From NCBI GenBank assembly GCA_031285325.1, contig JAITWJ010000073.1, positions 1 to 45,700 of the forward strand: a stretch of DNA of 45,700 nt, read 5' to 3'. Below are positions 1,811 to 40,634 of the stretch, piece by piece; the first letter of the stretch is position 1, and every line of letters starts with the position of its first letter. A model generated the notes under the pieces. The model was not told the DNA's origin and made no database searches. It was given only the letters and a program-made list of their open reading frames with translations. The stretch comes from Bacteroidales bacterium. Lineage in GTDB: Bacteria; Bacteroidota; Bacteroidia; Bacteroidales; Prolixibacteraceae. A program made the translations under genes and the position numbers.

Positions 1811-3046
1811 CTATAGTGTATTTTTTTTATGGGTCATATAAATATCAAGAGCCGAAGGAAATGGCTGCAATGCACGTTCAAAAATACCAAGTAAATAGGC
1901 AATGGCTAATCCGTAATTTGTGATTGCAACTTTGGCCTGACGTACCTGCATAATTCTTGTAAGCATTTCACGCCTGTTCCACATACAGGCTCCGCAGTGA
2001 ATTATAATTTTATATTCCGAAATATTTTCAGGGAAATCGTGTCCTCTGATATTATCTATTTGAAGTTTTCCTCCAACATATTGTGTAAGCCAGCGTGGTA
2101 TTTTTACCGTACCTATGTCTTCGCCAATTGGGTGGTGCGAACACGCTTCAGCAATTAAGACTTTGTCGCCGGCTTTAAGTTGGTCAATAGCCATTGCTCC
2201 GTGTACCATTTCAATTAAATCGGCCTTAAATCGTGCAAATAATATTGAAAATGAAGTTAAAGGAATTTCTTTTGGGGTACAGGCGGCAATTTTATTAAAA
2301 GCTTGTGAATCGGTTACAACAAGTTTTGGCGGTTTTTTAAGTCTTGAAAGAGTTTCGCGAAATTCCTGTTCTTTTACTACAATACAAAAAGAACCGTTAT
2401 CAAGTAAATCGCGGATACTCTGTACTTGCGGTAAAATTAACCTGCCTTTTGGTGTTTCCTTATCGATGGATATTACCAATATGGCTGCTTCTCCATACCC
2501 CACCAAGTCGCTTAAAATGGCTGGGCGATTTATAAAATCGATATTTACCGATTGCAAAAGTAATTGGCGTAGTTCATTAATGCCCTTTCCTGCAGATATT
2601 GAAGTAAAAACATAAGGTATTTTTGCATTGTTGAGTTGCAATGTAATATTAGGGTCTTCATTAAAATAATCAATTTTGTTGAATGCAACAACAAATGGTA
2701 TTTCACGTTTTTTGAATTCTGTAATCAGTTGATGTTCATGTTCGCCCCATTCAGCAAAGTTCGATACAATAATGCCCATATCGGTACGATCGAAAACAGC
2801 TATTGTTTTTTTTACTCTTTTTTCACCAATTATACCGACATCATCAATCCCTGCTGTATCAATAAAAAGCACTGGGCCAAACGGTAATAGTTCCATTGGT
2901 TTTTCAACAGGGTCGGTAGTTGTACCTGCAATGTCTGAAACAATTGAAACTTCCTGTTGTGTCAAAGCATTTAGCAAACTGGACTTTCCTGTATTCCTTC
3001 TTCCGAAAATACCTATATGTAATCGAAATGATTTTGGCGTTTTCAT
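1811..3046 (-). CDS. hydF: [FeFe]-hydrogenase maturation GTPase HydF
   Basis: HydF is the scaffold on which the 2Fe subcluster of [FeFe] hydrogenase is assembled before transfer to apo-HydA. The N-terminal half is an Era/MnmE-like GTPase: P-loop GRRNTGKSS (residues 15-23), TTTDP, DTAG (63-66) and NKID (123-126). The C-terminal domain carries the iron-sulfur ligand set expected for HydF: C302-x-H304 and, 45 residues later, H350-C351-xx-C354 (HCGAC). The length of 411 aa is normal. It is encoded 49 bp downstream of hydG on the same strand, with hydE divergent, so the maturase set is complete here. No hydrogenase subunit gene is in the window, so the target enzyme must be encoded elsewhere. Confidence 0.97.
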   Translation of the reverse strand: MKTPKSFRLHIGIFGRRNTGKSSLLNALTQQEVSIVSDIAGTTTDPVEKPMELLPFGPVLFIDTAGIDDVGIIGEKRVKKTIAVFDRTDMGIIVSNFAEWGEHEHQLITEFKKREIPFVVAFNKIDYFNEDPNITLQLNNAKIPYVFTSISAGKGINELRQLLLQSVNIDFINRPAILSDLVGYGEAAILVISIDKETPKGRLILPQVQSIRDLLDNGSFCIVVKEQEFRETLSRLKKPPKLVVTDSQAFNKIAACTPKEIPLTSFSILFARFKADLIEMVHGAMAIDQLKAGDKVLIAEACSHHPIGEDIGTVKIPRWLTQYVGGKLQIDNIRGHDFPENISEYKIIIHCGACMWNRREMLTRIMQVRQAKVAITNYGLAIAYLLGIFERALQPFPSALDIYMTHKKNTL

Positions 3047-3095
3047 TTTTCGTTTATCGAAACGTGAAAGTATTGATCTTCTTAGATGAGTTTAT

Positions 3096-4493
3096 TTAAC
3101 AATACACATCATCTCTTTCATTGTTTACCCGTTGAATCAGTTTTTCTGCTCTTTGCTTAGCAAGGCCGGTCATTTCAGTGATGCTCTTTTTTATGAGTTC
3201 ATCACCAATTTTCACTGTTTCCGGTTTTGCATAATTTTTCAAATATTCCTTGAATGATGACAAAGCGTTTGGAGCACAGTGCAATTTAATGTCGCCTGTT
3301 TTTGCAAGATCCATAAAGTCATGTCCGGTTCTGCCCAGTCGGTAGCAGGCTGTGCAAAAAGATGGTATATGTCCCATGGAAACAACATCACGAATTACCT
3401 CGTCAAGTGGACGGTGGTCGCCAAGACTAAACTGCCCGGATGGGTCATCATCGGTTTTTTCTTCATAACCTCCGGGATTTGTACGGCTTCCGGCTGAAAT
3501 CTGACTTACTCCCAGTGCAAATGTTTCACGGCGCATTTGAGCAGTTTCACGGGTTGACATAATTATTCCGGTATATGGAACTGCCAAACGTAAAATAGCA
3601 ACAATTTTTTTGAAATCGATATCTGAAACAGGAAATGGCGGGTGTGTAGCCAGTTTACTTCCCGTGGCGGGTTCAAGCCGAGGAACACTGATGGTATGTG
3701 GGCCAACGCCAAATTTATCTCCTAACTCAGCAATGTGCTGTATCATGGACAGAATTTCAAACCTGTAATCGAAAAGGCCAAATAGTATGCCAATGCCAAC
3801 ATCGTCTATGCCAGCCTCCATAGCACGGTGCAATGCCCATACCCGCCAGTTGTAATCGCGTTTTTTCCCCTTTAGATGAACCTTTTGGTATGTTTCGCGG
3901 TGGTAAGTTTCCTGAAAAATCTGGTATGTGCCAATACCTTCTGTCTTAAGAAGTTTAAATTCATCCGTGTCAAGTGGAGCTATATTAACATTTACGCGCC
4001 GTATTTCGCCATGCTCTGTTTTTACACTGTAAATAGTTTTTATTGAATCGAGTATATATTGAAATCCTTGATTTGGATATGATTCGCCGGCAACCATTAA
4101 AATTCGTTTATGCCCTTGGTTTATAAGAACATTAACTTCGCGTGCAATGTGTTCTTGTGTTAATGCATTTCGTTCTATTTTTTTGTTTGTAACACGAAAT
4201 GCACAGTACAGACACTCGTTTGAGCACATATTTGAAATGTATAATGGAGCAAAAAGCACCAGGCGTTTCCCGTAAATGGCTTCCTTTACTTCATTTGCAG
4301 AGTTAAATAACTCACTAAGCATTTCAGGATCGCTAATACCGGTTAAAACAGCAACATCGTTCATGTTCAACCCTTTCATTTCACGAGCTTTTGAAAGTAC
4401 TTCTCTTACTTTTATAAAGTCGGCTTTTTTGTTTGCCTCCAATACTTCCCATACTTTTTGTTCATCAATAAAATTTGCAGGTATATTATACAT
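3096..4493 (-). CDS. hydG: [FeFe]-hydrogenase maturase HydG (radical SAM tyrosine lyase)
   Basis: HydG cleaves tyrosine to give the CO and cyanide ligands of the H-cluster. The radical SAM CX3CX2C motif is C90-SNE-C94-LY-C97. The second, C-terminal cluster motif CX2CX22C is also complete (CTACYRLG...KLHC), which separates HydG from the related thiazole synthase ThiH. The 465-aa length matches HydG (about 460-480). The start is the ATG at 4493, facing a 176-bp divergent region shared with hydE. It is probably the first gene of a hydG-hydF transcript, with a 49-bp gap. Confidence 0.97.
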   Translation of the reverse strand: MYNIPANFIDEQKVWEVLEANKKADFIKVREVLSKAREMKGLNMNDVAVLTGISDPEMLSELFNSANEVKEAIYGKRLVLFAPLYISNMCSNECLYCAFRVTNKKIERNALTQEHIAREVNVLINQGHKRILMVAGESYPNQGFQYILDSIKTIYSVKTEHGEIRRVNVNIAPLDTDEFKLLKTEGIGTYQIFQETYHRETYQKVHLKGKKRDYNWRVWALHRAMEAGIDDVGIGILFGLFDYRFEILSMIQHIAELGDKFGVGPHTISVPRLEPATGSKLATHPPFPVSDIDFKKIVAILRLAVPYTGIIMSTRETAQMRRETFALGVSQISAGSRTNPGGYEEKTDDDPSGQFSLGDHRPLDEVIRDVVSMGHIPSFCTACYRLGRTGHDFMDLAKTGDIKLHCAPNALSSFKEYLKNYAKPETVKIGDELIKKSITEMTGLAKQRAEKLIQRVNNERDDVYC

Positions 4494-4555
4494 GGTTTAA
4501 AATTTTTGAAATCGCCTTTTATCAAACTTTAGTAAAATGTAAAGTTAAGACTTTA

Positions 4556-4579
4556 ATTTTAGATATTAACATCTAAAAT
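4556..4579. promoter_or_regulatory. Inverted repeat in the hydG-hydE divergent promoter region
   Basis: ATTTTAGAT and ATCTAAAAT form perfect 9-bp arms around a 6-nt spacer (ATTAAC), in the middle of the 176-bp region between divergent hydG and hydE. A partial copy (TTTTATCTAAAATT) follows about 45 bp downstream. The position suits an operator controlling both maturase transcripts. The sequence does not match a Rex or an FNR/CRP consensus that I know, so the regulator is not named. Confidence 0.45.
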
Positions 4580-4669
4580 ATTTTTGAGCGTAAAGCTCAT
4601 ATTTTTTAATTTTATCTAAAATTAAAACAAGCGTGTAAATATTTTTGGGAATACATTTTAAAGAAAGTT

Positions 4670-5713
4670 GTGGAAAAAACAAAGATAATAGAATTGCTTC
4701 AGCTTCGAGGCGAAGAAAGAAATGTGCTGTTTGGAGAAGCCTCGAAAGTTAAAGATGAGATTGTTGGCCGAAAAGTATATTTCCGTGGATTGGTTGAGAT
4801 TTCAAATATATGCTCGAAAGACTGTTTATACTGCGGAATAAGAAAAAGTAACGATAAGGTTATTCGTTATAATGCAAGTGATGAAGAAATACTTTCAGCA
4901 TGCCGGTTTGCATGGGAAAATGGTTTTGGTTCGGTGGTTTTGCAGTCGGGCGAGTTAACATCGCCTGCATTTGTAAGGCGAGTGGATTATATTTTAAAAC
5001 AAATTAAGAAACTTTCGGGTAACGAACTGGGTATTACACTCAGTTGCGGTGAGCAAACAAGAGAAACTTTACGGCGTTGGTTCGACAGTGGAGCGCACCG
5101 GTATTTACTGCGTATTGAAACTTCCAATAATGATTTGTATAATAAAATTCATCCAAAAACAAAAAAACATTCTTTCGAAAAACGTATTGAGGCGCTGAAT
5201 TTACTGCGCGATGAAGGTTATCAGTTGGGAACGGGGGTTATGATTGGCTTACCTTTTCAGACTGTTGAAGATTTGGCTGACGACCTCTTGTTTTTCAAAA
5301 AAATGGATATTGACATGTGCGGAATGGGGCCTTATATAGAACATAAGCACACACCATTGTTTGAATATGGAAATTTGCTTAAACCCAAACATGAACGTTT
5401 TGATTTAGCGCTGAACATGATTGCTGTTTTGCGTTTGCTAATGCCCGATATAAACATTGCAGCTACTACCGCATTGCAGGCAATTGATACTGCAGGGCGT
5501 GAAAAAGCGCTTACGGTTGGCGCCAATGTTATTATGCCAAACTTAACACCCTGTAAATACCGGAAAGATTATCTGCTATACGAAGGTAAGCCTAATTTAG
5601 ACGAAGATGCCGGATTTAATAATTATATAAAAACCCTTGCCGAATATACAGGAAACAAAATAGGATACAACGAATGGGGTGATTCGTTACATTTTCAAAA
5701 AAATAAAAAATAA
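4670..5713 (+). CDS. hydE: [FeFe]-hydrogenase maturase HydE (radical SAM)
   Basis: HydE is the radical SAM enzyme acting with HydG and HydF to build the azadithiolate-bridged subcluster. The CX3CX2C motif is C48-SKD-C52-LY-C55. Other family features are LQSGE, the SCGEQTRETLRRW block, LRIETSN and GVMIGLPFQTVEDLADDL, followed by the C-terminal NLTPCKYRKDYLLYEGKP segment. The length of 347 aa is typical. The start is GTG (gtggaaaaaaca), preceded by a purine run (AAAGAAAG); no closer ATG fits. It is transcribed away from hydG-hydF and converges with the DUF5715-like gene, with only 7 bp between the two stop codons. Confidence 0.96.
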   Translation: MEKTKIIELLQLRGEERNVLFGEASKVKDEIVGRKVYFRGLVEISNICSKDCLYCGIRKSNDKVIRYNASDEEILSACRFAWENGFGSVVLQSGELTSPAFVRRVDYILKQIKKLSGNELGITLSCGEQTRETLRRWFDSGAHRYLLRIETSNNDLYNKIHPKTKKHSFEKRIEALNLLRDEGYQLGTGVMIGLPFQTVEDLADDLLFFKKMDIDMCGMGPYIEHKHTPLFEYGNLLKPKHERFDLALNMIAVLRLLMPDINIAATTALQAIDTAGREKALTVGANVIMPNLTPCKYRKDYLLYEGKPNLDEDAGFNNYIKTLAEYTGNKIGYNEWGDSLHFQKNKK

Positions 5714-6461: not shown

Positions 6462-6691
6462 TGTATCTTTTTCGATTCAATGCCTGCAATATTAAAATGA
6501 AAATTGGTTTATTGCCTTACTCGGTTTTTTAAGTTATAAACACAACATTGTTAATGTATAAATTATTGCTGTTTAGTATTGTATTTTACAGTTGACAGAG
6601 GCTTCGCGCTGTTGCCGGCAGTAACGGCGAAACAATCAGGAACAATTAATAATTAAGAGAGAGGATACGACAGCATCGCAAGCACCAAAAC

Positions 6692-6826
6692 GATGATTTT
6701 GCCTCTTGCGGAGTTTCCGCAAACCCCAAAATGAAGATTTTACCTCTTGCGGAGTTTCCGCAAACCCCAAAAAGATGATTTTGCCCCTTGCGGAGTTTCC
6801 GCAAACCCCCAAAAGATAATTTTGCA
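6692..6826. repeat. 41-bp tandem array with hairpins (in element A)
   Basis: About 3.3 copies of a 41-bp unit. Every full unit contains TTGCGGAGTTTCCGCAA, a perfect 7-bp stem with a 3-nt loop, preceded by CTC or CCC and followed by ACCCC. Units differ at only a few positions, mostly outside the stem. Confidence 0.9.
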
Positions 6827-13614: not shown

Positions 13615-15330
13615 ATGACATTATTTGAAGAAATGGGGTTCAGTTCCGAAATTCAACTTGCAATTGAAGAATTAGGATTCAAACAGCCCACACCAATCCA
13701 GGAAAAAACAATTCCTTTTTTATTGGAGAAAAAGCAAGACATGGTAGCATTGGCACAAACCGGAACCGGAAAAACTGCAGCCTTTGGATTACCAATTATA
13801 CAACAGATTGATTTAACAAAAAAAACAATCCAGGCGCTAATACTAAGTCCAACCAGAGAGTTAGCGCTTCAGATTACAAGCGACATAAATAACTTTTCAA
13901 AATATTTGCCAAAAATTAATGTGGCAGTTGTTTATGGAGGAGCCGACATTAAAAAGCAAATCAACGAAATTGAACGTGGAGCACAAATAATTGTAGGCAC
14001 ACCCGGACGAACTCTTGATTTGATTAAGCGAAAGAAATTGAAAATAAACGAAATTAGTTGGCTTGTACTCGATGAAGCCGACGAAATGCTTTCAATGGGT
14101 TTTAAAGACGATTTGGATGCAATACTTGAAAATGTGCCCAAAGAAAAGCAAACTTTACTGTTTTCGGCTACCATGCCAAACGAAATAGTGGCCATTGCAA
14201 ATAAGTATATGATCAATCCTTTTGATATTTCGGTTGGTAAAAAAAATACTGGAGCTGAAAATGTAGAGCACCACTTTTACTTAATTCATGCAAAAGACAG
14301 ATATCTGGCGTTGAAACGCGTAGCTGATATTAACCCAAGTATTTATGGGATAATTTTCTGCCGTACACGTATGGAAACCAAAGAAGTAGCAGACAAACTC
14401 ATGCAAGACGGATACAATGCTGATGCTTTGCATGGCGATCTTTCGCAGGCACAGCGCGACCATGTAATGGCGCGTTTTAGGGGTAAACACCTGCAAATGC
14501 TGGTAGCTACCGATGTTGCTGCCCGCGGATTAGATGTGAACGATTTAACCCACGTTATTAATTACAATTTGCCCGACGATCCTGAAATTTATATACACCG
14601 CAGCGGAAGAACAGGACGTGCCGGAAAAAAAGGAATTTCGGTTACGTTAATCCACCTGCGCGAGAAAAACAAAATAAAACAGGTTGAAAAGATTGTAAAC
14701 AAACAGTTTATTCAAAAAGAAGTCCCAACAGGGAAAGAGATATGTGAAAGACAGCTTTTCAGCCTGATTGACAAAGTAGAAAAAATTGAGGTTAACGAAG
14801 AGCAAATAGGTGAATTTATGCCTGTAATTTATAAGAAACTGGCATGGCTTGATCGCGAGGAACTTATAAAGCATTTTGTTTCGGTTGAATTTAACCGTTT
14901 TCTGGATTATTATAAAAATGCACCGGATATTAATGTTGACGAATCGAAACACAGAGAGGTTGATTTAGAACCAGGTGAACGTAACCACAGAAGGCGCAGC
15001 CGTAATAAAAATGGTAACGGCGAAGAACGTAACAATAATGGTGAACGAAAAAACAAACATGAACGCAACGAGAAAAAGAGGGGAGGGTACGACTTCTCAA
15101 GGTTCTTTTTTAATCTTGGCAAAAAAAATGGTATCAGTAAACGTTCCATCATAGAGTTGATAAACCAGAAATTGCCGACTCAAAGCGTAGAAATAGGGAG
15201 CATAGAAGTACTGAAAAGTTTTTCATTCTTCGAAATAGACAAACGATACGAGAAAGAAGTCCTGAAAGCTTTCAAAAATGCCAATTACAAAGGACAACGT
15301 ATAGGAATTGACATAGCCAAAGGGAAATAA
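13615..15330 (+). CDS. DEAD-box RNA helicase with DbpA-like RNA-binding domain
   Basis: A 571-residue ATP-dependent RNA helicase of the DeaD/CsdA type, acting in ribosome assembly, RNA decay or cold adaptation. All core motifs are present in order: Q motif GFKQPTPIQ, motif I AQTGTGKT, PTRELALQ, TPGR, DEAD, SAT, IIFCRTR, ARGLDV and HRSGRTGRAG. A strongly basic Asn/Arg/Lys linker (about residues 450-490) leads to a C-terminal domain (YDFSRFFFNLGKKNGISKRSIIELIN...) that looks like the DbpA RNA-binding fold. It is monocistronic, with a -7 box upstream and a bidirectional terminator 50 bp downstream. Confidence 0.95.
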   Translation: MTLFEEMGFSSEIQLAIEELGFKQPTPIQEKTIPFLLEKKQDMVALAQTGTGKTAAFGLPIIQQIDLTKKTIQALILSPTRELALQITSDINNFSKYLPKINVAVVYGGADIKKQINEIERGAQIIVGTPGRTLDLIKRKKLKINEISWLVLDEADEMLSMGFKDDLDAILENVPKEKQTLLFSATMPNEIVAIANKYMINPFDISVGKKNTGAENVEHHFYLIHAKDRYLALKRVADINPSIYGIIFCRTRMETKEVADKLMQDGYNADALHGDLSQAQRDHVMARFRGKHLQMLVATDVAARGLDVNDLTHVINYNLPDDPEIYIHRSGRTGRAGKKGISVTLIHLREKNKIKQVEKIVNKQFIQKEVPTGKEICERQLFSLIDKVEKIEVNEEQIGEFMPVIYKKLAWLDREELIKHFVSVEFNRFLDYYKNAPDINVDESKHREVDLEPGERNHRRRSRNKNGNGEERNNNGERKNKHERNEKKRGGYDFSRFFFNLGKKNGISKRSIIELINQKLPTQSVEIGSIEVLKSFSFFEIDKRYEKEVLKAFKNANYKGQRIGIDIAKGK

Positions 15331-15445: not shown

Positions 15446-15973
15446 TTAAATATTGTCTTTTATAATTGAGTCTGGATTTAATTTTATTATATCCATAACA
15501 GATTCGTAATCTTTATAATCAATAGCTTTATTTTTCAGTAATGCGGCGGGTAAAACTGTAATTCTGAAAATCTGCCCTTGTGTTTCGGCAGGCAAAAGGT
15601 TGTTGAAATTAGTGGTTCCTTCCAAAAATATTCTAACATCGGCATTTGTACTGTCGAAATTATACTGCAATATACCATCGTTCAGCACAACTGTCTGAGG
15701 TAATAACCGCCATACTTTGGCTTCTCCGCCATTATTGGTTTCGGCTGTTTCCCATAAAATATGAACCAGAACTACATCGCCATCGTAAACTTTAATATTA
15801 CTTGGAAATGCATAATAGAGTTCATATCCCTCGTTTGGCGTAAAATCGCCTGTTATTTCGATAACTGAACCGAGAAGGTTCTCTCCATCAACACCGGGAG
15901 GGCCCATTGGCCCTTCGCACGATATTGTTATTATAAAGGTTAATGCTAAAATTAATCTTGTTACTGTTTTCAT
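15446..15973 (-). CDS. Collagen-like-motif lipoprotein of unknown function
   Basis: A 175-residue predicted lipoprotein. The signal peptide MKTVTRLILALTFIITISC ends with a lipobox at Cys19, and the mature protein opens with a short collagen-like GPMGPPGVDGEN run. The remaining 140 residues are beta-rich (LLGSVIEITGDFTPNEGYELYYAF...) without enzyme motifs. Such proteins are widespread in Bacteroidota and have no known function; database entries naming them dihydrolipoamide dehydrogenase are unlikely to be right, because no nucleotide-binding motif is present. It is adjacent to the GH32-like gene on the same strand (73-bp gap), so co-expression is possible. Confidence 0.75.
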   Translation of the reverse strand: MKTVTRLILALTFIITISCEGPMGPPGVDGENLLGSVIEITGDFTPNEGYELYYAFPSNIKVYDGDVVLVHILWETAETNNGGEAKVWRLLPQTVVLNDGILQYNFDSTNADVRIFLEGTTNFNNLLPAETQGQIFRITVLPAALLKNKAIDYKDYESVMDIIKLNPDSIIKDNI

Positions 15974-16046: not shown

Positions 16047-17474
16047 TTATTTACCCCATGCTGTGTTAATGGCGTAAATATCCATTTTTTTTATCATAAG
16101 TTCGCCGCCGTTATTATATAAAATATACCCGTTGGCTCCTTCAACAGGAGTGAAATTATTTGTAATTGTTACCTGCCCGCCATTTGCGAATACTTCTATT
16201 GATGCACGGTCTATCAGAATTTCAATGGAAATTTTATTGTCAATTAGTTGAACGGGAACTGTAGTTCCGAATACCGACAGTGTTTCGTTTGTTACATTGT
16301 ACAGAATTTCGGTGCCTATATCTTTTCTTCCGTTACGAATCATAAATCCGAAATTATTTGATGTTTTAACATCGAATTCGGCTATAATGTGAAAACATTC
16401 GCCTTTAATGTTTTTTAAGGGATTGTAATTTAGTCCGGGTATAATGTTTTTGTCTGTAAAATTATGGTGTTTGCCGTGTAATGAGGCAATTTCTCTTACC
16501 GGCAGTTTTGTTAGTTTATATTCGGAGTTTAATTTGTTAATTTTAAGTTCGGCAGGGAAAGTCATTTGTCCGCTAAAAGGCATGTTTGGGTAATAATTTT
16601 CGCCATTCATCCATGCTATTTGAATTATGCGTCCGTCTTCTGCCGGAATGTAGTTCCAGGTTTTGGGCGCAAAATAGTTTATTCCGTAGTCGCTTGCCGC
16701 TTTAGCCGTTTCGGGCGAAAATGTTTCACCGTCAAAATCTCCGATTATGTAACTTCCGTCTTCATCAAATAAAATCCATTTTGTTTCTTCGGGCCGGTTT
16801 GCTACTTTTATACTTACCAGGCTGGGGGTGCCTTTCAGGTTTGCGATATCACTTTCCCATTCCCAGTTTATCAGGTTGTTTGAAGAGTATATTGACGCTC
16901 CTCTCGAATTATCATTAATTTCGCGGTTTAAAACCATTATCCATTTTTGTGTTTGTTCGTGCCAAAATATGTTTGGGTCGCGCATGTTGTCTGCTTCGCT
17001 GTGCGGCATAACAGGGTTTTTTTCGAGGTTGTTCCACATTATGCCTTTGTTTGTGCTGTATGCAATTCTTAGCCCGCAGCTTTGGCTGATATTAAACATA
17101 AGTAATGTTTTTTCTGCTCCTGTTTGTTTGCCTAAGGTATTATTTTCGTCTATTATTATCGAGCTCGACAGTATTTTGCAGTTTTCGGCATTAAATGTTA
17201 CCGGATTATGTTTCCAGTTAACCATGTTTTTGCTGCTTGCATGCCCCCATTCAAGATCGGCGCTGTTGTTGGCGTTGTTTGGCAGATACTGATAAAACAT
17301 GTGGTATTCGCTATCGTAATACAAAAGCCCGCTTGTGGTAACGTGCCGGCCTGTTTCGGGCGAGAAGTGGAATTGCGGCCTGTATGTTTCCGAGTAATAA
17401 TCTTTTTCGGGCTTAGCAGAGGTGAGCGTTAATGCCAAAATTGTGCCGGCAAATATTATCGATAAATATTTCAT
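16047..17474 (-). CDS. GH32-fold protein lacking both catalytic acids (predicted pseudoenzyme)
   Basis: A 475-residue exported protein with the full two-domain fold of glycoside hydrolase family 32 (levanase/inulinase/invertase). It has a Sec signal peptide (residues 1-20), YRPQFHFSPE (31-40), YHMFYQYLP, LEWGHASSKNMVNW, the RDP transition-state motif intact at 165-167, and a C-terminal beta-sandwich with IDRASIEVFANGG. The nucleophile motif WMNDPNG, however, reads RHVTTSG (43-49), so the catalytic Asp is Thr46. The acid/base motif ECP reads GTP (215-217), so the Glu is Gly215. Hydrolysis by the known mechanism is not expected; fructan binding is a possible role. No SusC/SusD or other fructan genes adjoin it. 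Confidence 0.88.
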   Translation of the reverse strand: MKYLSIIFAGTILALTLTSAKPEKDYYSETYRPQFHFSPETGRHVTTSGLLYYDSEYHMFYQYLPNNANNSADLEWGHASSKNMVNWKHNPVTFNAENCKILSSSIIIDENNTLGKQTGAEKTLLMFNISQSCGLRIAYSTNKGIMWNNLEKNPVMPHSEADNMRDPNIFWHEQTQKWIMVLNREINDNSRGASIYSSNNLINWEWESDIANLKGTPSLVSIKVANRPEETKWILFDEDGSYIIGDFDGETFSPETAKAASDYGINYFAPKTWNYIPAEDGRIIQIAWMNGENYYPNMPFSGQMTFPAELKINKLNSEYKLTKLPVREIASLHGKHHNFTDKNIIPGLNYNPLKNIKGECFHIIAEFDVKTSNNFGFMIRNGRKDIGTEILYNVTNETLSVFGTTVPVQLIDNKISIEILIDRASIEVFANGGQVTITNNFTPVEGANGYILYNNGGELMIKKMDIYAINTAWGK

Positions 17475-18278: not shown

Positions 18279-18469
18279 GTTTACGGTTGTGTTATGTGCT
18301 GTTAGCGCTTTGTTTTTTATGAAATTGTTTTTGTATATGTTCCGGCAGGCTCCCGTATATTATTGTTTGAATGCCGTTCGGTTTAAAAGCTTTGTTCGTT
18401 TTATTGCGAAGATACACATTGTTTTACAAATTCCGGTGATTGTATTTTGTTGAATGTGAAAATTTGTTC

Positions 18470-18720
18470 CGCGCACCGTCCCCGAAGTTCCGCGCACCGT
18501 CCTCGAAGTTCCAGCCCCCGTCCCCGAAGTTCCAGCCCTCGTCCTTGAAGTTCCAGCCCCCGTCCTTGAAGTTCAATCCCCCGTCCCCGAAGTTCAATCC
18601 CCAGTTCCCGAAGTTCCAGCCCCAGTTCTCGAAGTTCAAACCCTCGTTCCCGAACTTCCAGCCCTCGTCCCCGAATTTCCAGACTCAGTCCTTGAAGTTC
18701 AATCCCTCGTCCTTGAAATT
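18470..18720. repeat. 21-bp minisatellite (about 12 units)
   Basis: About twelve tandem copies of a 21-bp unit close to GAAGTTCCAGCCCCCGTCCCC lie between rsmE and the aminopeptidase gene. Since 21 is a multiple of 3, all frames without a stop stay open across it, producing spurious ORFs on both strands (182, 103 and 71 aa) of the type ELRGRGL repeated. No start context, signal or family supports translation. The rest of the 645-bp gap (18279-18469 and 18721-18923) contains nothing that I can identify. Confidence 0.9.
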
Positions 18721-18923
18721 GCTGAGCATGCCGATAAATGTTTTTTTGTGAAGTTAACGAAGTAACTGTTATTCGATGCGGAGTGAATGCGCCGTTTTTT
18801 GTTTCGTTTTCATGTAAATATAATTTCAACCCCTTCCGCAGCTTTTTCGCGCTGTGCGTTATGCCGGCGGCGCCTGCGGGGCTGAAAGGCGGAAATGGGG
18901 CAGGGGCGTATCTGTTTGCCATA

Positions 18924-20714
18924 TTATACGGGTTTGGTAATTTCGGCAAGAAATAACCGGTGCTCTTTACTTAAACAGTGTGTTAATTCGTTTTTTACTC
19001 TCAGGTGGTAGGTGTTCAGCCATTCTTTTTCGTTAGGCGTTAGCAGTTCAAAATCAATCAAACTTGTATCGACAGGGCACAGGGTGAGGGTTTCAAAACA
19101 TAAGAACTTGCCGAATTCATTTTCTTCTTTTTCAACACAAACTATCATGTTCTCTGTTCTGATACCGTATAGCCGGCTGCGGTATATGGCGGGTTCATTC
19201 GAAAAAACCATTCCGGGCTCAATCGGATTCGGATTAAAATCGGGGCGAATGGCTACCGGGCCTTCATGAACATTAAGGAAGTGCCCCACTCCGTGTCCGG
19301 TGCCGTGCCCGTAGTTTAGCCCTTTTTCAAGAAGCGGCTTCCGCGCCAAAATATCCAGCTGGCAGCCTTTTGTGCCAACAGGGAAAACAGCAGCGGTAAG
19401 CGCTATCATTCCTTTCAGTACCAGTGTAAAATCAATTTTTTGCTGATCAGTAACTTCGCCAAGTGCAATTGTACGTGTAATATCTGTTGTGCCGTCTTTG
19501 TACTGCCCTCCCGAATCTATAAGCAGCAGCCCCCGGGGTTCAAGCGGCAGCGCATTGTTTGCATCAACGCTCAGATGAACAATTGCACCATGATTTTTAT
19601 ACCCGACTATCGGCGGGAAACTTTCGCAATCGTACCCCGGCTGTTTAGAACGTATTTCATCGAGTTTTCTCCCAACGGTATATTCTGTAATATTGCCTTT
19701 CCCGATATTTTGCCTTATCCAGTATAAAAATTCAACCATAGCAGCGCCGTCTTTAATCATCGCACTGCGAAACCCGTTCAGCTCAACAGTGTTTTTCCTT
19801 GCTTTTTGAAGTTTTACCGGCGAGGCGCCTTCAATAAACGAGTTGCCGTTCTTTTCAAGTATTTCGAAAACAGAATAATTTAAGGTTGAAGGGTCAATAA
19901 AAATTTTTGTTCCGCCTGTTGCGCCCGTTTCATTCAGCCATGCGAAAAAATCGCCATACTCATGTACCGATATTTTTTCTTTTTCGAGTTGTGCCAAAAG
20001 TTGTGGCCCAATACCCGATTTATTTGTGAAAAGGAGCATTTCATTTTCGCCAATCACGCCATAACCGGTAAAAACAGGACTGCAATTAACTGCATTACCT
20101 CTAAGATTAAACATCCATGCAAGTTCGTCTAATGTTGAAATAATATTAAAACAAGCGCCTGTTTTTTTAAGTTCGGCAGCTTGTTGTTCCCATTTTTCCT
20201 TCCGCGATACGCCTGCATATTTTAACGGGAAATCGTAAACGCTGCTGCATGGCGTTTCAGGCCGGTTCTCCCATACTTTATCCAACAAACCGGTAGTTTT
20301 TACCAAAACAATCTCTTGAGTATCCAGTTCTCTGTGCAATATTCTGAAACCGTTCACCGTTAATGCCTGCGGTTCGAATCCTACCTTACTCTTCGGTTTC
20401 AATTTTTCTGAAAGCCACTTTTCAGGCGAAATAGCGCCCGTTACTCCCATCTTGAACATTTTTACACCCGAACCTTTCAGCTGTTCTTCAGCCTGAATAA
20501 AATACCGCGAGTCAGTCCACAAACCGGCATCTTCCTGTGTAATTGCAACAATACCGCAAGAACCGGTAAAACCGGTAAGAAATTCGCATATCTTCCATTT
20601 TTCGGGTAAGTATTCATTCGAATGCGGGTCGGTTCCCGATATGTAAAATGCATCCAAATTTTGTTTAAGCATTTCGAGGCGCAGAGCCTTTAACCTGTTT
20701 TTAATTTCGTTCAT
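18924..20714 (-). CDS. Xaa-Pro aminopeptidase (M24B, aminopeptidase P family)
   Basis: A 596-residue M24B metallopeptidase removing N-terminal residues that precede proline. It has the long three-domain build of cytosolic aminopeptidase P1-like enzymes: two N-terminal creatinase-like domains (ISGTDPHSNEYLPEKWKICEFLTGFTGSCG, then a second domain to about residue 310), and a C-terminal pita-bread domain. The dinuclear metal ligands are visible in LIDSGGQYKDGTTDITRT (two Asp), GHGTGHGVGHFLNVHEGP (His), SNEPAIY (Glu) and GIRTENM (Glu). The start is the ATG at 20714. No operon partner is evident; it is followed by the 21-bp minisatellite. Confidence 0.95.
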   Translation of the reverse strand: MNEIKNRLKALRLEMLKQNLDAFYISGTDPHSNEYLPEKWKICEFLTGFTGSCGIVAITQEDAGLWTDSRYFIQAEEQLKGSGVKMFKMGVTGAISPEKWLSEKLKPKSKVGFEPQALTVNGFRILHRELDTQEIVLVKTTGLLDKVWENRPETPCSSVYDFPLKYAGVSRKEKWEQQAAELKKTGACFNIISTLDELAWMFNLRGNAVNCSPVFTGYGVIGENEMLLFTNKSGIGPQLLAQLEKEKISVHEYGDFFAWLNETGATGGTKIFIDPSTLNYSVFEILEKNGNSFIEGASPVKLQKARKNTVELNGFRSAMIKDGAAMVEFLYWIRQNIGKGNITEYTVGRKLDEIRSKQPGYDCESFPPIVGYKNHGAIVHLSVDANNALPLEPRGLLLIDSGGQYKDGTTDITRTIALGEVTDQQKIDFTLVLKGMIALTAAVFPVGTKGCQLDILARKPLLEKGLNYGHGTGHGVGHFLNVHEGPVAIRPDFNPNPIEPGMVFSNEPAIYRSRLYGIRTENMIVCVEKEENEFGKFLCFETLTLCPVDTSLIDFELLTPNEKEWLNTYHLRVKNELTHCLSKEHRLFLAEITKPV

Positions 20715-23951: not shown

Positions 23952-23968
23952 TATATAGGAGTATGGCG

Positions 23969-24853
23969 ATGAGCAACAACACAAAAATATCAATCCGTTT
24001 CTTTGATGACCGCGAAGTGCGTGCCGTTTGGGACGAAGAAAACGCCAAATGGTGGTTTTCGGTTTTGGATATCGTAGCTGTTCTTACCGACCAGGATGAC
24101 TATACCAGAACGCGAAACTATTGGAAATACCTCAAAGCGAAATTGAAGAAGGAAAATAGTGAAGTGGTTAGTATTACTACCCAGTTGAAACTTCTCGCAC
24201 CTGATGGGAAAAAGCGTTTAACCGATATGCTCGATTATAACGGCATCATTGCTCTCGGCAAACAATTTCCCGGCAAAAAGGCAAATAGGTTTATCGAATG
24301 GTTTACCTTTAGCGATGAAAGCATAGACGGTAAAAGCAAAACAAAGGCGTATGCTCTGTTTGAAAGTTCATTTATCAACAGTATTGAGGTGGGGACAAGC
24401 AAAGGCTTACAGCAAATACATGGCTACCTGTTTGGGGGCTTGTATGATTTTGCAGGACAGATAAGGCAAAAGAACATCTCGAAAGGCGGTTTTCAGTTTG
24501 CTGTGTCACACTTTCTTGGCGGTACCTTAAAGCAAATAGAAGAAATGCCCGAAACAACATTGAATGAGATTATCGACAAATATATTGAGATGAACATTGC
24601 CCACCCATTTATGGATGGCAACGGCAGAAGCACACGCATTTGGCTTGATTTGATGCTGAAACGTTCTATGAAAAAGTGTGTGGATTGGAGCAAAATAGGC
24701 AAAACCGAGTATATGAATGCTATGATAGAAAGCCCAATAGATAGTACCACTATTAAGGCTTTGATTGAAGGCGCTTTAACCAACAAAATCAATGATAGGG
24801 AAATGTTTATGAAAGGAATTGATTACTCGTATTACTATGAAGAAAACGAGTAG
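23969..24853 (+). CDS. BRO-N domain Fic protein with class III inhibitory motif
   Basis: A Fic-domain enzyme, expected to AMPylate a target protein. Numbering follows the track ORF that begins at 23963. The N-terminus (residues 8-118, ISIRFFDDREVRAVWDEEN...WWFSVLDIV) resembles the BRO-N/phage antirepressor domain. The Fic core has the full catalytic motif HPFMDGNGRSTR (214-225). The C-terminal segment DREMFMKGIDYSYYYEENE carries SYYYE, matching the (S/T)xxxE inhibitory helix of class III Fic proteins such as the Neisseria enzyme, although the usual Gly/Asn after Glu is Glu. AGGAG at 23957-23961 lies 7 nt before the second ATG (23969), so this start is chosen over 23963. A Shine-Dalgarno site this strong is unusual among its neighbours and hints at acquisition. 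Confidence 0.88.
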   Translation: MSNNTKISIRFFDDREVRAVWDEENAKWWFSVLDIVAVLTDQDDYTRTRNYWKYLKAKLKKENSEVVSITTQLKLLAPDGKKRLTDMLDYNGIIALGKQFPGKKANRFIEWFTFSDESIDGKSKTKAYALFESSFINSIEVGTSKGLQQIHGYLFGGLYDFAGQIRQKNISKGGFQFAVSHFLGGTLKQIEEMPETTLNEIIDKYIEMNIAHPFMDGNGRSTRIWLDLMLKRSMKKCVDWSKIGKTEYMNAMIESPIDSTTIKALIEGALTNKINDREMFMKGIDYSYYYEENE

Positions 24854-26237: not shown

Positions 26238-26652
26238 AAACTGTTTTGAATTTACCAGGATAAGTTTTTTTTACCCCCTTCGATGAACTGTTTCACAGAA
26301 TTGCGATACCTTCGTGCAGGGCTGCACGGTACTTTCGTGGAGTTGCGAAACCTTCGCGCAGGGTTGCACGGCACTTGCGTGAGGCACGAAACGGGAAACA
26401 ATCTACAGCAATTAATAATGGACAATTGACAGTTGACAATTCACAATTAAAAGAAAGGCTGAATTGAGATCTGTATGATTTTAATAATTGCCGTGATTAT
26501 ATTTTACCACACAGAACACAAAGTTTATGCAAAGTTCGCAAAGAAAATCATGCTAATCTTTTAATCCTGTAAATCGTGGTTCAGACATCACTGTCAATTG
26601 TCCACTGTCAATTCTTAATTGTTCCAGACTTCCCGAAATTCAAAAACAGTTT
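26238..26652. mobile_element. Intergenic repeat element B with terminal inverted repeats
   Basis: A 415-bp non-coding element between convergent MFS and methyltransferase genes. The left end is AAACTGTTTTGAATTT (26238-26253) and the right end AAATTCAAAAACAGTTT (26636-26652). These are inverted repeats differing by one T. Next to the left end is the reverse of the family's end block (ACCAGGATAAG...CCTTCGATGAACTG), then a 42-bp tandem array (26298-26392), then low-complexity TGACAATT-type sequence and a segment (ACACAAAGTTTATGCAAAG, CCTGTAAATCGTGGTTC) of a kind often scattered in such genomes. No transposase is encoded, so any movement would need help in trans. Confidence 0.75.
26298..26392. 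repeat. 42-bp tandem array with hairpins (in element B)
   Basis: Two full 42-bp units plus a partial third. At the junction between units, TTTCGTGGAGTTGCGAAA forms the family hairpin inside the frame GGTACTTTC...GAAAC, which is shared with the array of element C. A second internal stem (CGTGCA/TGCACG) is present in the first unit. Confidence 0.8.
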
Positions 26653-34279: not shown

Positions 34280-34865
34280 TACAATCGACAGTTGATAATT
34301 GACAATTGACAATGGGCTGCTGCGTCATTGCGAACCCGGCAGGGTGAAGCAATCCGGGGTAATTAATAATTGAAAATTGACAATTGATAATTAGTAATGA
34401 ATAACTGTCAACTGTAAATTGTTAACTGTCAATTATACATTATCCATTATCAACAGTCAACCGTCCATTGTCAATTCCACCTGCCACCGTTGCCCCGTTC
34501 CCCGCAATGATGCCAACAAGTGCGAAACTGCTTTCACCATACGATGAAACCATGTTTGAAGGCTTGGAGATACTTTCACCATACGATGAAACTGTGTTTT
34601 CGGGCGGAAAGGTACTTTCCTCAAACGAGGAAACTATGTTTTCGGGCGGAAATGTACTTTCCTCAAGCGGGGAAACTATGTTTTCGGGCGGAAAGGTACT
34701 TTCCTCAAACGGGGAAACTATGTTTTCGGGCGTGAAGGTACTTTCCTCAAACGATGAAACTATGTTTTCGGGCGTGAACATACTTTCATCAAATGGGGAA
34801 ACCACCTCGAAGCAGTTAATGGAAGTGTCTCGAAGAAAACTTGTCAGGTAAATTCAAAACAGTTT
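34280..34865. repeat. Intergenic repeat element C (hairpin-array family)
   Basis: The non-coding gap between the convergent channel gene and uvrA. It has a low-complexity left part with many TGACAATT/TTGTCAAC variants and a CAATCCGGGGTAATTAATAATTG block shared with A, a 42-bp tandem array (34531-34800), then the end block GAAGCAGTTAATGGAAG...AAATTCAAAACAGTTT (34850-34865). No left terminal repeat is seen. Its right end overlaps the uvrA stop codon. The four ORFs drawn across it (71-127 aa on both strands) come from the repeat. Confidence 0.75.
34531..34800. repeat. 42-bp tandem array with hairpins (in element C)
   Basis: About 6 units near GAAACTATGTTTTCGGGCGG plus AAAGGTACTTTCCTCAAACGAG. 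Each junction forms TTTCCTC/GAGGAAA-type hairpins of 18 nt. Unit-to-unit changes often keep pairing through G-T wobble (for example TTTCCTCAAGCGGGGAAA), although some units have one mismatch. Confidence 0.88.
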
Positions 34866-40256: not shown

Positions 40257-40634
40257 AAACCGTTTTTGAATTTCATAAAACAGGGAAAACAATTCTTAAT
40301 TGCTGTTGAATGTTTCCCGCTTCGCAAGCTCGCGGTTCGCAATGACGCAGCAGCCAAACTACACGGATTACGGCTTGCGCAGCCCGTGCAACGACCAAAT
40401 GACAAGATTTACGGCTTGCGCAATCCGCGCAACTACCAAATGGTACGATTTGCCACTTGCGCAGCCCGTGCAACGACCAAATCACACGATTCACTACTTG
40501 CGGAAACTACTGCAAACCCGAAAATCACCAATTTGCAATGTATAATTGTTGTTGTTCACTGTCAATTGTCAATCGCGAGGCAGTTCATGGAAGGGTCTAA
40601 AAAGAAACTTGTCCGGTAAATTCAAAAACGGGTT
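40257..40634. mobile_element. Intergenic repeat element D with terminal inverted repeats
   Basis: A 378-bp non-coding element between the SPFH and symporter genes. The left end AAACCGTTTTTGAATTT (40257-40273) and the right end AAATTCAAAAACGGGTT (40618-40634) are 17-bp inverted repeats with one mismatch. It holds a 41-bp tandem array (40360-40510), a short TGTCAATTGTCAAT stretch, and the family end block GAGGCAGTTCATGGAAGG...CTTGTCCGG next to the right end. Relative to element B it lies in the opposite orientation. The rest of the 649-bp gap (40070-40256, 40635-40718) is A+T-rich with nothing else seen. ORFs across it are artefacts. Confidence 0.75.
40360..40510. repeat. 41-bp tandem array with hairpins (in element D)
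   Basis: Three units plus a fourth diverged one, each near ACGGCTTGCGCAGCCCGTGCAACGACCAAATG... with a hairpin TTGCGC...GYGCAA in the same place. The second unit has TTGCGC/GCGCAA where the first has TTGCGC/GTGCAA, so pairing is kept through wobble or Watson-Crick exchange. Confidence 0.88.

Follow-up and report, generated by a model that had tools for sequence, protein, structure and literature searches.

A full-length GH32-fold protein of Prolixibacteraceae with two replaced catalytic residues, probably retained as a pseudoenzyme

We analyzed a protein of glycoside hydrolase family 32 (GH32) encoded in a 45,700-nucleotide stretch of DNA (positions 1 to 45,700 of contig JAITWJ010000073.1, assembly GCA_031285325.1; here called the window) from a Bacteroidales bacterium of the family Prolixibacteraceae. 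The host genome is a 2.16-Mb, 96.7% complete metagenome-assembled genome, in which one GH32 was found. An earlier note on this DNA had described a full-length GH32 protein in which the two catalytic sites, and nothing else, are lost, and had proposed a non-hydrolytic function, for example in fructan sensing or binding. The gene, an open reading frame (ORF) of 475 codons with no internal stop and no frameshift, has the following features.

16047..17474, minus strand: predicted GH32 pseudoenzyme gene, 475 amino acids, full-length ORF (Pfam domains, AlphaFold2 [AF2] model)
17415..17474, minus strand: putative Sec-type signal peptide, residues 1 to 20 (MKYLSIIFAGTILALTLTSA), without a lipobox (by eye from the sequence; model helix at residues 2 to 19)
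16509..17369, minus strand: five-bladed beta-propeller (GH32N), residues 36 to 322 (Pfam PF00251, model strands)
17328..17348, minus strand: degenerate nucleophile motif RHVTTSG, residues 43 to 49, with Asp46 replaced by Thr at 17337-17339 (alignment)
16977..16979, minus strand: Asp166 of RDP (transition-state stabilizer position), kept (alignment)
16824..16832, minus strand: degenerate acid/base motif GTP, residues 215 to 217, with Glu215 replaced by Gly at 16830-16832 (alignment)
16074..16490, minus strand: C-terminal beta-sandwich (GH32C), residues 329 to 467 (Pfam, conservation)

By sequence family and fold, the protein belongs to GH32. Both domains score above the curated Pfam cut-offs: GH32N with an E value of 1.8e-47 and 162.9 bits (cut-off, 22.1), and GH32C with an E value of 6.8e-20 and 72.1 bits (cut-off, 21.9). 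A structure model, which the earlier note had suggested as a check, was built with AF2 from 54 aligned relatives. It contains a complete propeller and sandwich (predicted local distance difference test [pLDDT], 92.3; predicted template modeling score [pTM], 0.90), and its best matches in the PDB by Foldseek were the exo-inulinase 1y4w and the endo-inulinase 3sc7 (fold match E value, 7.6e-35). The N-terminal signal peptide was also recognized by eye. The protein is probably periplasmic or secreted.

We aligned the window protein with its orthologues. RHVTTSG sits on W[HMQ]NDPNG and GTP sits on ECP, which confirms the replacements of Asp46 by Thr and of Glu215 by Gly that had been read from the motifs WMNDPNG and ECP; RDP is preserved, as claimed, as R165-D166-P167. 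Instead of the Asp nucleophile, RDP Asp, and ECP Glu of a competent GH32 enzyme, the window protein has Thr46, Asp166, and Gly215. However, the loss extends well beyond two sites. Across 86 active orthologues, we scored positions with a conservation of 96% or more, 131 of which were alignable (106 in the propeller and 25 in the sandwich). In the propeller domain, 34 of 106 conserved positions are altered, whereas the sandwich differs at 1 of its 25 (Fisher P value, 0.002); the C-terminal part (residues 323 to 471) retains the other 24. The altered propeller positions include N42, W43, N45, D46, P47, N64, W71, G72, H75, G104, E215, C216, and D218, and many lie in motifs lining the pocket. The pocket residue F102, which is less conserved and belongs to the FSGS motif, is likewise lost. 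The earlier claim that everything apart from the two catalytic residues is kept was not confirmed. The triad was intact in 101 of 102 other GH32 sequences used as controls (Bacteroidales, Firmicutes, Actinomyces, and others); judged by these controls and by the many codons involved, triad loss is neither chance nor error. As predicted from these replacements, the window protein is probably unable to hydrolyze fructosides through the GH32 mechanism. A further GH32 homologue, L055 from an uncultured Bacteroidales, has K/D/L at the triad positions and is possibly another, separate GH32 pseudoenzyme.

The -1 subsite of GH32 enzymes is made up of N, Q, W, F, S, R, D, and W. Docking and mutagenesis of an exo-inulinase placed N52, W79, S114, R181, D182, and W334 at the -1 fructose, and the W79L, F113L, R181L, C239A, and W334L mutants were each inactive (PMC7545266). 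Read from alignments, the window equivalents of the six docked residues are V45, S71, S103, R165, D166, and W288, and L102 and T216 correspond to F113 and C239. Six residues at or supporting the -1 fructose (N, D, W, F, E, and the adjacent C) have become V45, T46, S71, L102, G215, and T216, and five subsite residues (Q62, S103, R165, D166, and W288) are retained. Such a pocket might still bind fructosides or sucrose uncut, as a lectin-like sensor of the kind that the earlier note proposed. The five retained residues are consistent with this idea, and E221A, an acid/base mutant of the Bacteroides endo-levanase BT1760, binds levan very well (PMC6560043). We nevertheless consider a fructan-sensing pocket improbable because about half of the -1 fructose-site equivalents are replaced, and single changes comparable to those seen here (W79L, F113L, and C239A) abolish exo-inulinase activity (PMC7545266). 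In addition, the replaced positions in clades with a broken triad (here called dead) drift, varying about as much as ordinary columns; Gly45 and Gly215 are recurrent exceptions. On average, and these two glycines apart, a newly conserved site in the dead pocket is thus not supported. We found no fructan utilization locus (adjacent SusC/SusD or a further GH32) among the genes examined in the window. Relatives at an early stage of loss (L008 and L202) would fit a sensor better than the window copy does.

Two replacements near pocket segments, H75 to E and H209 to D, introduce new acidic residues. Displaced acids such as E75 or D209, or a different chemistry, might in principle serve another substrate, and genus g3 consistently has the nucleophile Asp changed to Glu with the acid/base Glu kept. 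However, E75 occurs in no close orthologue of the pocket alignment, and no carboxylate adjoins position 46 or 215 in sequence. We regard a changed enzyme as very improbable.

Loss of the triad has recurred across the Prolixibacteraceae. A GH32 homologue is present in 135 of 140 genomes of the family. We retrieved 129 distinct members of the short GH32 lineage that includes the window protein; 124 could be scored, and the Asp/Asp/Glu triad was broken in 37 of these. The count is 29 without eight members of genus g3, in which Asp is replaced by Glu or Gln and the acid/base residue is intact; judged by these residues, the eight might retain some activity. All scored g3 members (L129, L185, L187, L204, L205, L206, L208, and L210) have the motif W-x-F-[EQ]-x-x-G and retain the RDP Asp and the acid/base Glu. 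On a family tree built without the motif columns, triad breakage took about 11 state changes, at least 8 of them forced by well-supported branches, although the exact count is soft since this is a quick tree with long branches. Taken separately, loss of the nucleophile and loss of the acid/base residue took 11 changes each, Glu to Gly took 7, and Asn45 to Gly took 6. A single origin of all Glu-to-Gly copies was rejected by constraining them to one clade (approximately unbiased test P value [p-AU], 0.0019). For the window's genus and its neighbors, a carefully built tree required 4 to 5 changes, and one clade for the genus's five dead copies was rejected (P value, 0.027). The window copy and L137/L138 as a clade by themselves were not rejected by the GH32 data (P value, 0.18); the pepP tree separates them. 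The family also holds a graded series of losses: L008 (NDE) stands beside the active L013, L202 (NDD) lies within an active clade, and L137/L138 have SGG. In the open-licence literature, we found no paper that describes bacterial GH32 proteins with a lost triad or that deals with this protein in Prolixibacteraceae, which does not prove that none exists.

The GH32 and pepP trees give the window genome the same neighbors (G050, G040, and G036). Because these neighbors agree and relatives share synteny with the helicase gene listed below, the GH32 gene is, on present evidence, vertically inherited from an active lineage (Maribellus-like relatives). The congruent neighbors and shared synteny ruled out horizontal transfer and contamination.

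We then considered whether the dead copies are retained or decaying. The earlier note had favored retention, and had named purifying selection and frameshifted homologues as checks. Dead copies of the short GH32 lineage are full length. The ratio of nonsynonymous to synonymous substitution rates (dN/dS; Nei-Gojobori method, NG86) was 0.13 for the dead sister pair L137/L138, 0.04 for L124/L198, and 0.15 for L188/L207, and ranged from 0.04 to 0.11 in comparable active pairs. An intact ORF under purifying selection after catalytic loss, as expected of a pseudoenzyme, is thus found in the dead sister pairs directly and in the window copy indirectly. In a simulation of neutral drift, an identity loss of 20% left about 6 stops on average and a loss of 10% left 2.8; the window ORF has none. 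Positions that are specific to the lineage and kept whether a member is active or dead are found in the last part of the propeller (G240 and M298-x-F-x-G-Q303) and in the C-terminal sandwich (P346, G347, N351, R380, G387, E389, R423, N431, and E458), and the window copy retains 28 of 30. Full-length dead relatives, purifying selection, the absence of stops, and the spared sandwich all speak for retention over decay.

We propose that the protein probably has two functions: hydrolysis, which is dispensable, and a conserved role outside the pocket, for which the window copy would be kept as a pseudoenzyme. The second role would be non-hydrolytic, common to active and dead members, and sited in the beta-sandwich and the lineage-specific positions. 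Where there is no need to hydrolyze fructosides, the pocket would decay while the remainder stays under selection as a folded protein. We infer that this role exists, that it is located there, and that the window copy still performs it. As a guess, the protein might serve as a cell-envelope scaffold by binding either a surface glycan or a protein of the envelope. A broader version, plausible although we would not call it probable, is that the short GH32 is a core envelope component of Prolixibacteraceae whose main function is non-hydrolytic even in active members. Catalysis would then be optional, with at least eight separate losses, often by the same replacements (N45 to Gly and Glu215 to Gly), the window copy being one such event.

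Several observations weigh against a retained second role. No close relative of the window copy is known (best identity, 57 to 58%), and on its own branch synonymous sites are saturated for dN/dS. The branch is also faster than the genome's own acceleration, with an excess distance of about 0.5 to 0.57 (corresponding values, 0.15 to 0.19 for pepP and rsmE and at most about 0.23 for gfo); this is as expected from either functional change or relaxed selection. In one relative, an active-type copy, L151 of G037, looks frameshifted (about 527 to 1971, residues 1 to 76 and 65 to 482 in two frames), and the gene can therefore be lost. G037 is a single-contig genome, and its split GH32 reflects either recent pseudogenization or an error in sequencing. 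Finally, a GH32 enzyme also requires its beta-sandwich to fold and to remain soluble (PMC6560043), so conservation of the sandwich may reflect stability only.

The accelerated branch and the frameshifted copy would also fit a remnant under relaxed selection, in which the enzyme became useless in a reduced genome and the gene, in early decay, is open by chance. The window genome, at its reduced size, has 3 SusD genes versus 69 to 77 in its large sister genomes, and the triad is broken in all four genomes of the genus with the fewest SusD candidates (G056, G000, G059, and G049). This suggests that, in the window's genus, hydrolysis becomes unnecessary once a life on polysaccharides is given up. 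We rejected lost glycan foraging as a family-wide cause; the SusD-poor G082, G087, and G089 are outside the dead set, and G115 and g15 are SusD rich yet dead. As an account of the window copy itself, a decaying remnant is unlikely. The changes are clustered in the propeller, with the sandwich spared; several stops would be expected after a neutral run long enough to alter 34 conserved positions; and many dead relatives persist over deep divergence under purifying selection.

Two genes near the GH32 gene were compared with those of relatives.

13615..15330, plus strand: DEAD-box helicase gene (cluster c8), also close to GH32 (within a few genes) in several relatives; synteny and orthology marker
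15446..15973, minus strand: small lipoprotein-like ORF directly downstream of the GH32 gene; not conserved beside the gene in relatives

On inspection, the neighbors of GH32 in relatives were metalloprotease-like, peptidase, and transporter-like genes and did not form a fructan locus. In many relatives (L111-L121, L034, L036, and L037), one or two secreted metalloprotease-like proteins of about 820 amino acids (cluster c1) are encoded divergently from GH32. They have an HExxHG-like motif and a C-terminal tail resembling those of the type IX secretion system (T9SS), as read from their sequences. Elsewhere in the window, a 182-amino-acid ORF between rsmE and pepP (18401-18949, minus strand; ELRGRGLELQGRG...) consists of a 21/63-bp tandem repeat (18476-18712) and is probably not a gene. 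Arrays of 41- to 42-bp tandem units, differing in sequence and mostly intergenic, lie at 6677-6825, 26301-26381, 34571-34802, and 40354-40502. A HydF-type GTPase gene and two radical-SAM genes (HydG/HydE-like) at 1811-5713 would provide [FeFe] hydrogenase maturation, suggesting a fermentative anaerobe. A Fic-family protein adenylyltransferase, above its NCBIfam cut-off, is encoded at 23963-24853 (plus strand).

Comparison with known proteins places the window copy as follows. GH32 beta-fructosidases (1y4w, 3sc7, and BT1760) have the same fold, domain order, and family but possess the full triad and fructose pocket; in the window protein, two triad residues and about half of the pocket are missing. 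Orthologues of active type, as judged from sequence, in Maribellus, Draconibacterium, and Mariniphaga (L032-L040) share its lineage, length, signal peptide, and conserved sandwich, with triad and pocket intact. Given the recurrent triad loss, GH32 counts from genomes would overstate the fructan-degrading capacity of Prolixibacteraceae. Plant defective invertases such as tobacco Nin88 are likewise extracellular, non-hydrolytic proteins of GH32 fold, with a reported non-catalytic role. Their triad is intact, and the defect lies in a neighboring Asp/Lys couple or a Trp (PMC3713406), unlike in the window protein, where the triad itself is broken. A further mark of the plant type is action through an active GH32 partner. 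We rejected such a role for the window protein since no second GH32 was found in its 96.7% complete genome; it is possible in genera with several, such as g15. Klotho-type pseudoenzymes, from another glycoside hydrolase family, have lost their catalytic carboxylates and keep the fold for binding or scaffolding. They are unrelated in family and organism, and the likeness is that of a glycosidase fold without its catalytic carboxylates. The natural series from active copies through first losses to loss of all three residues could reveal any role of the glycosidase fold beyond catalysis. Pseudoenzymes are usually regarded as duplicates that accompany an active copy; here, a near-universal lineage has died repeatedly in place and yet been kept.
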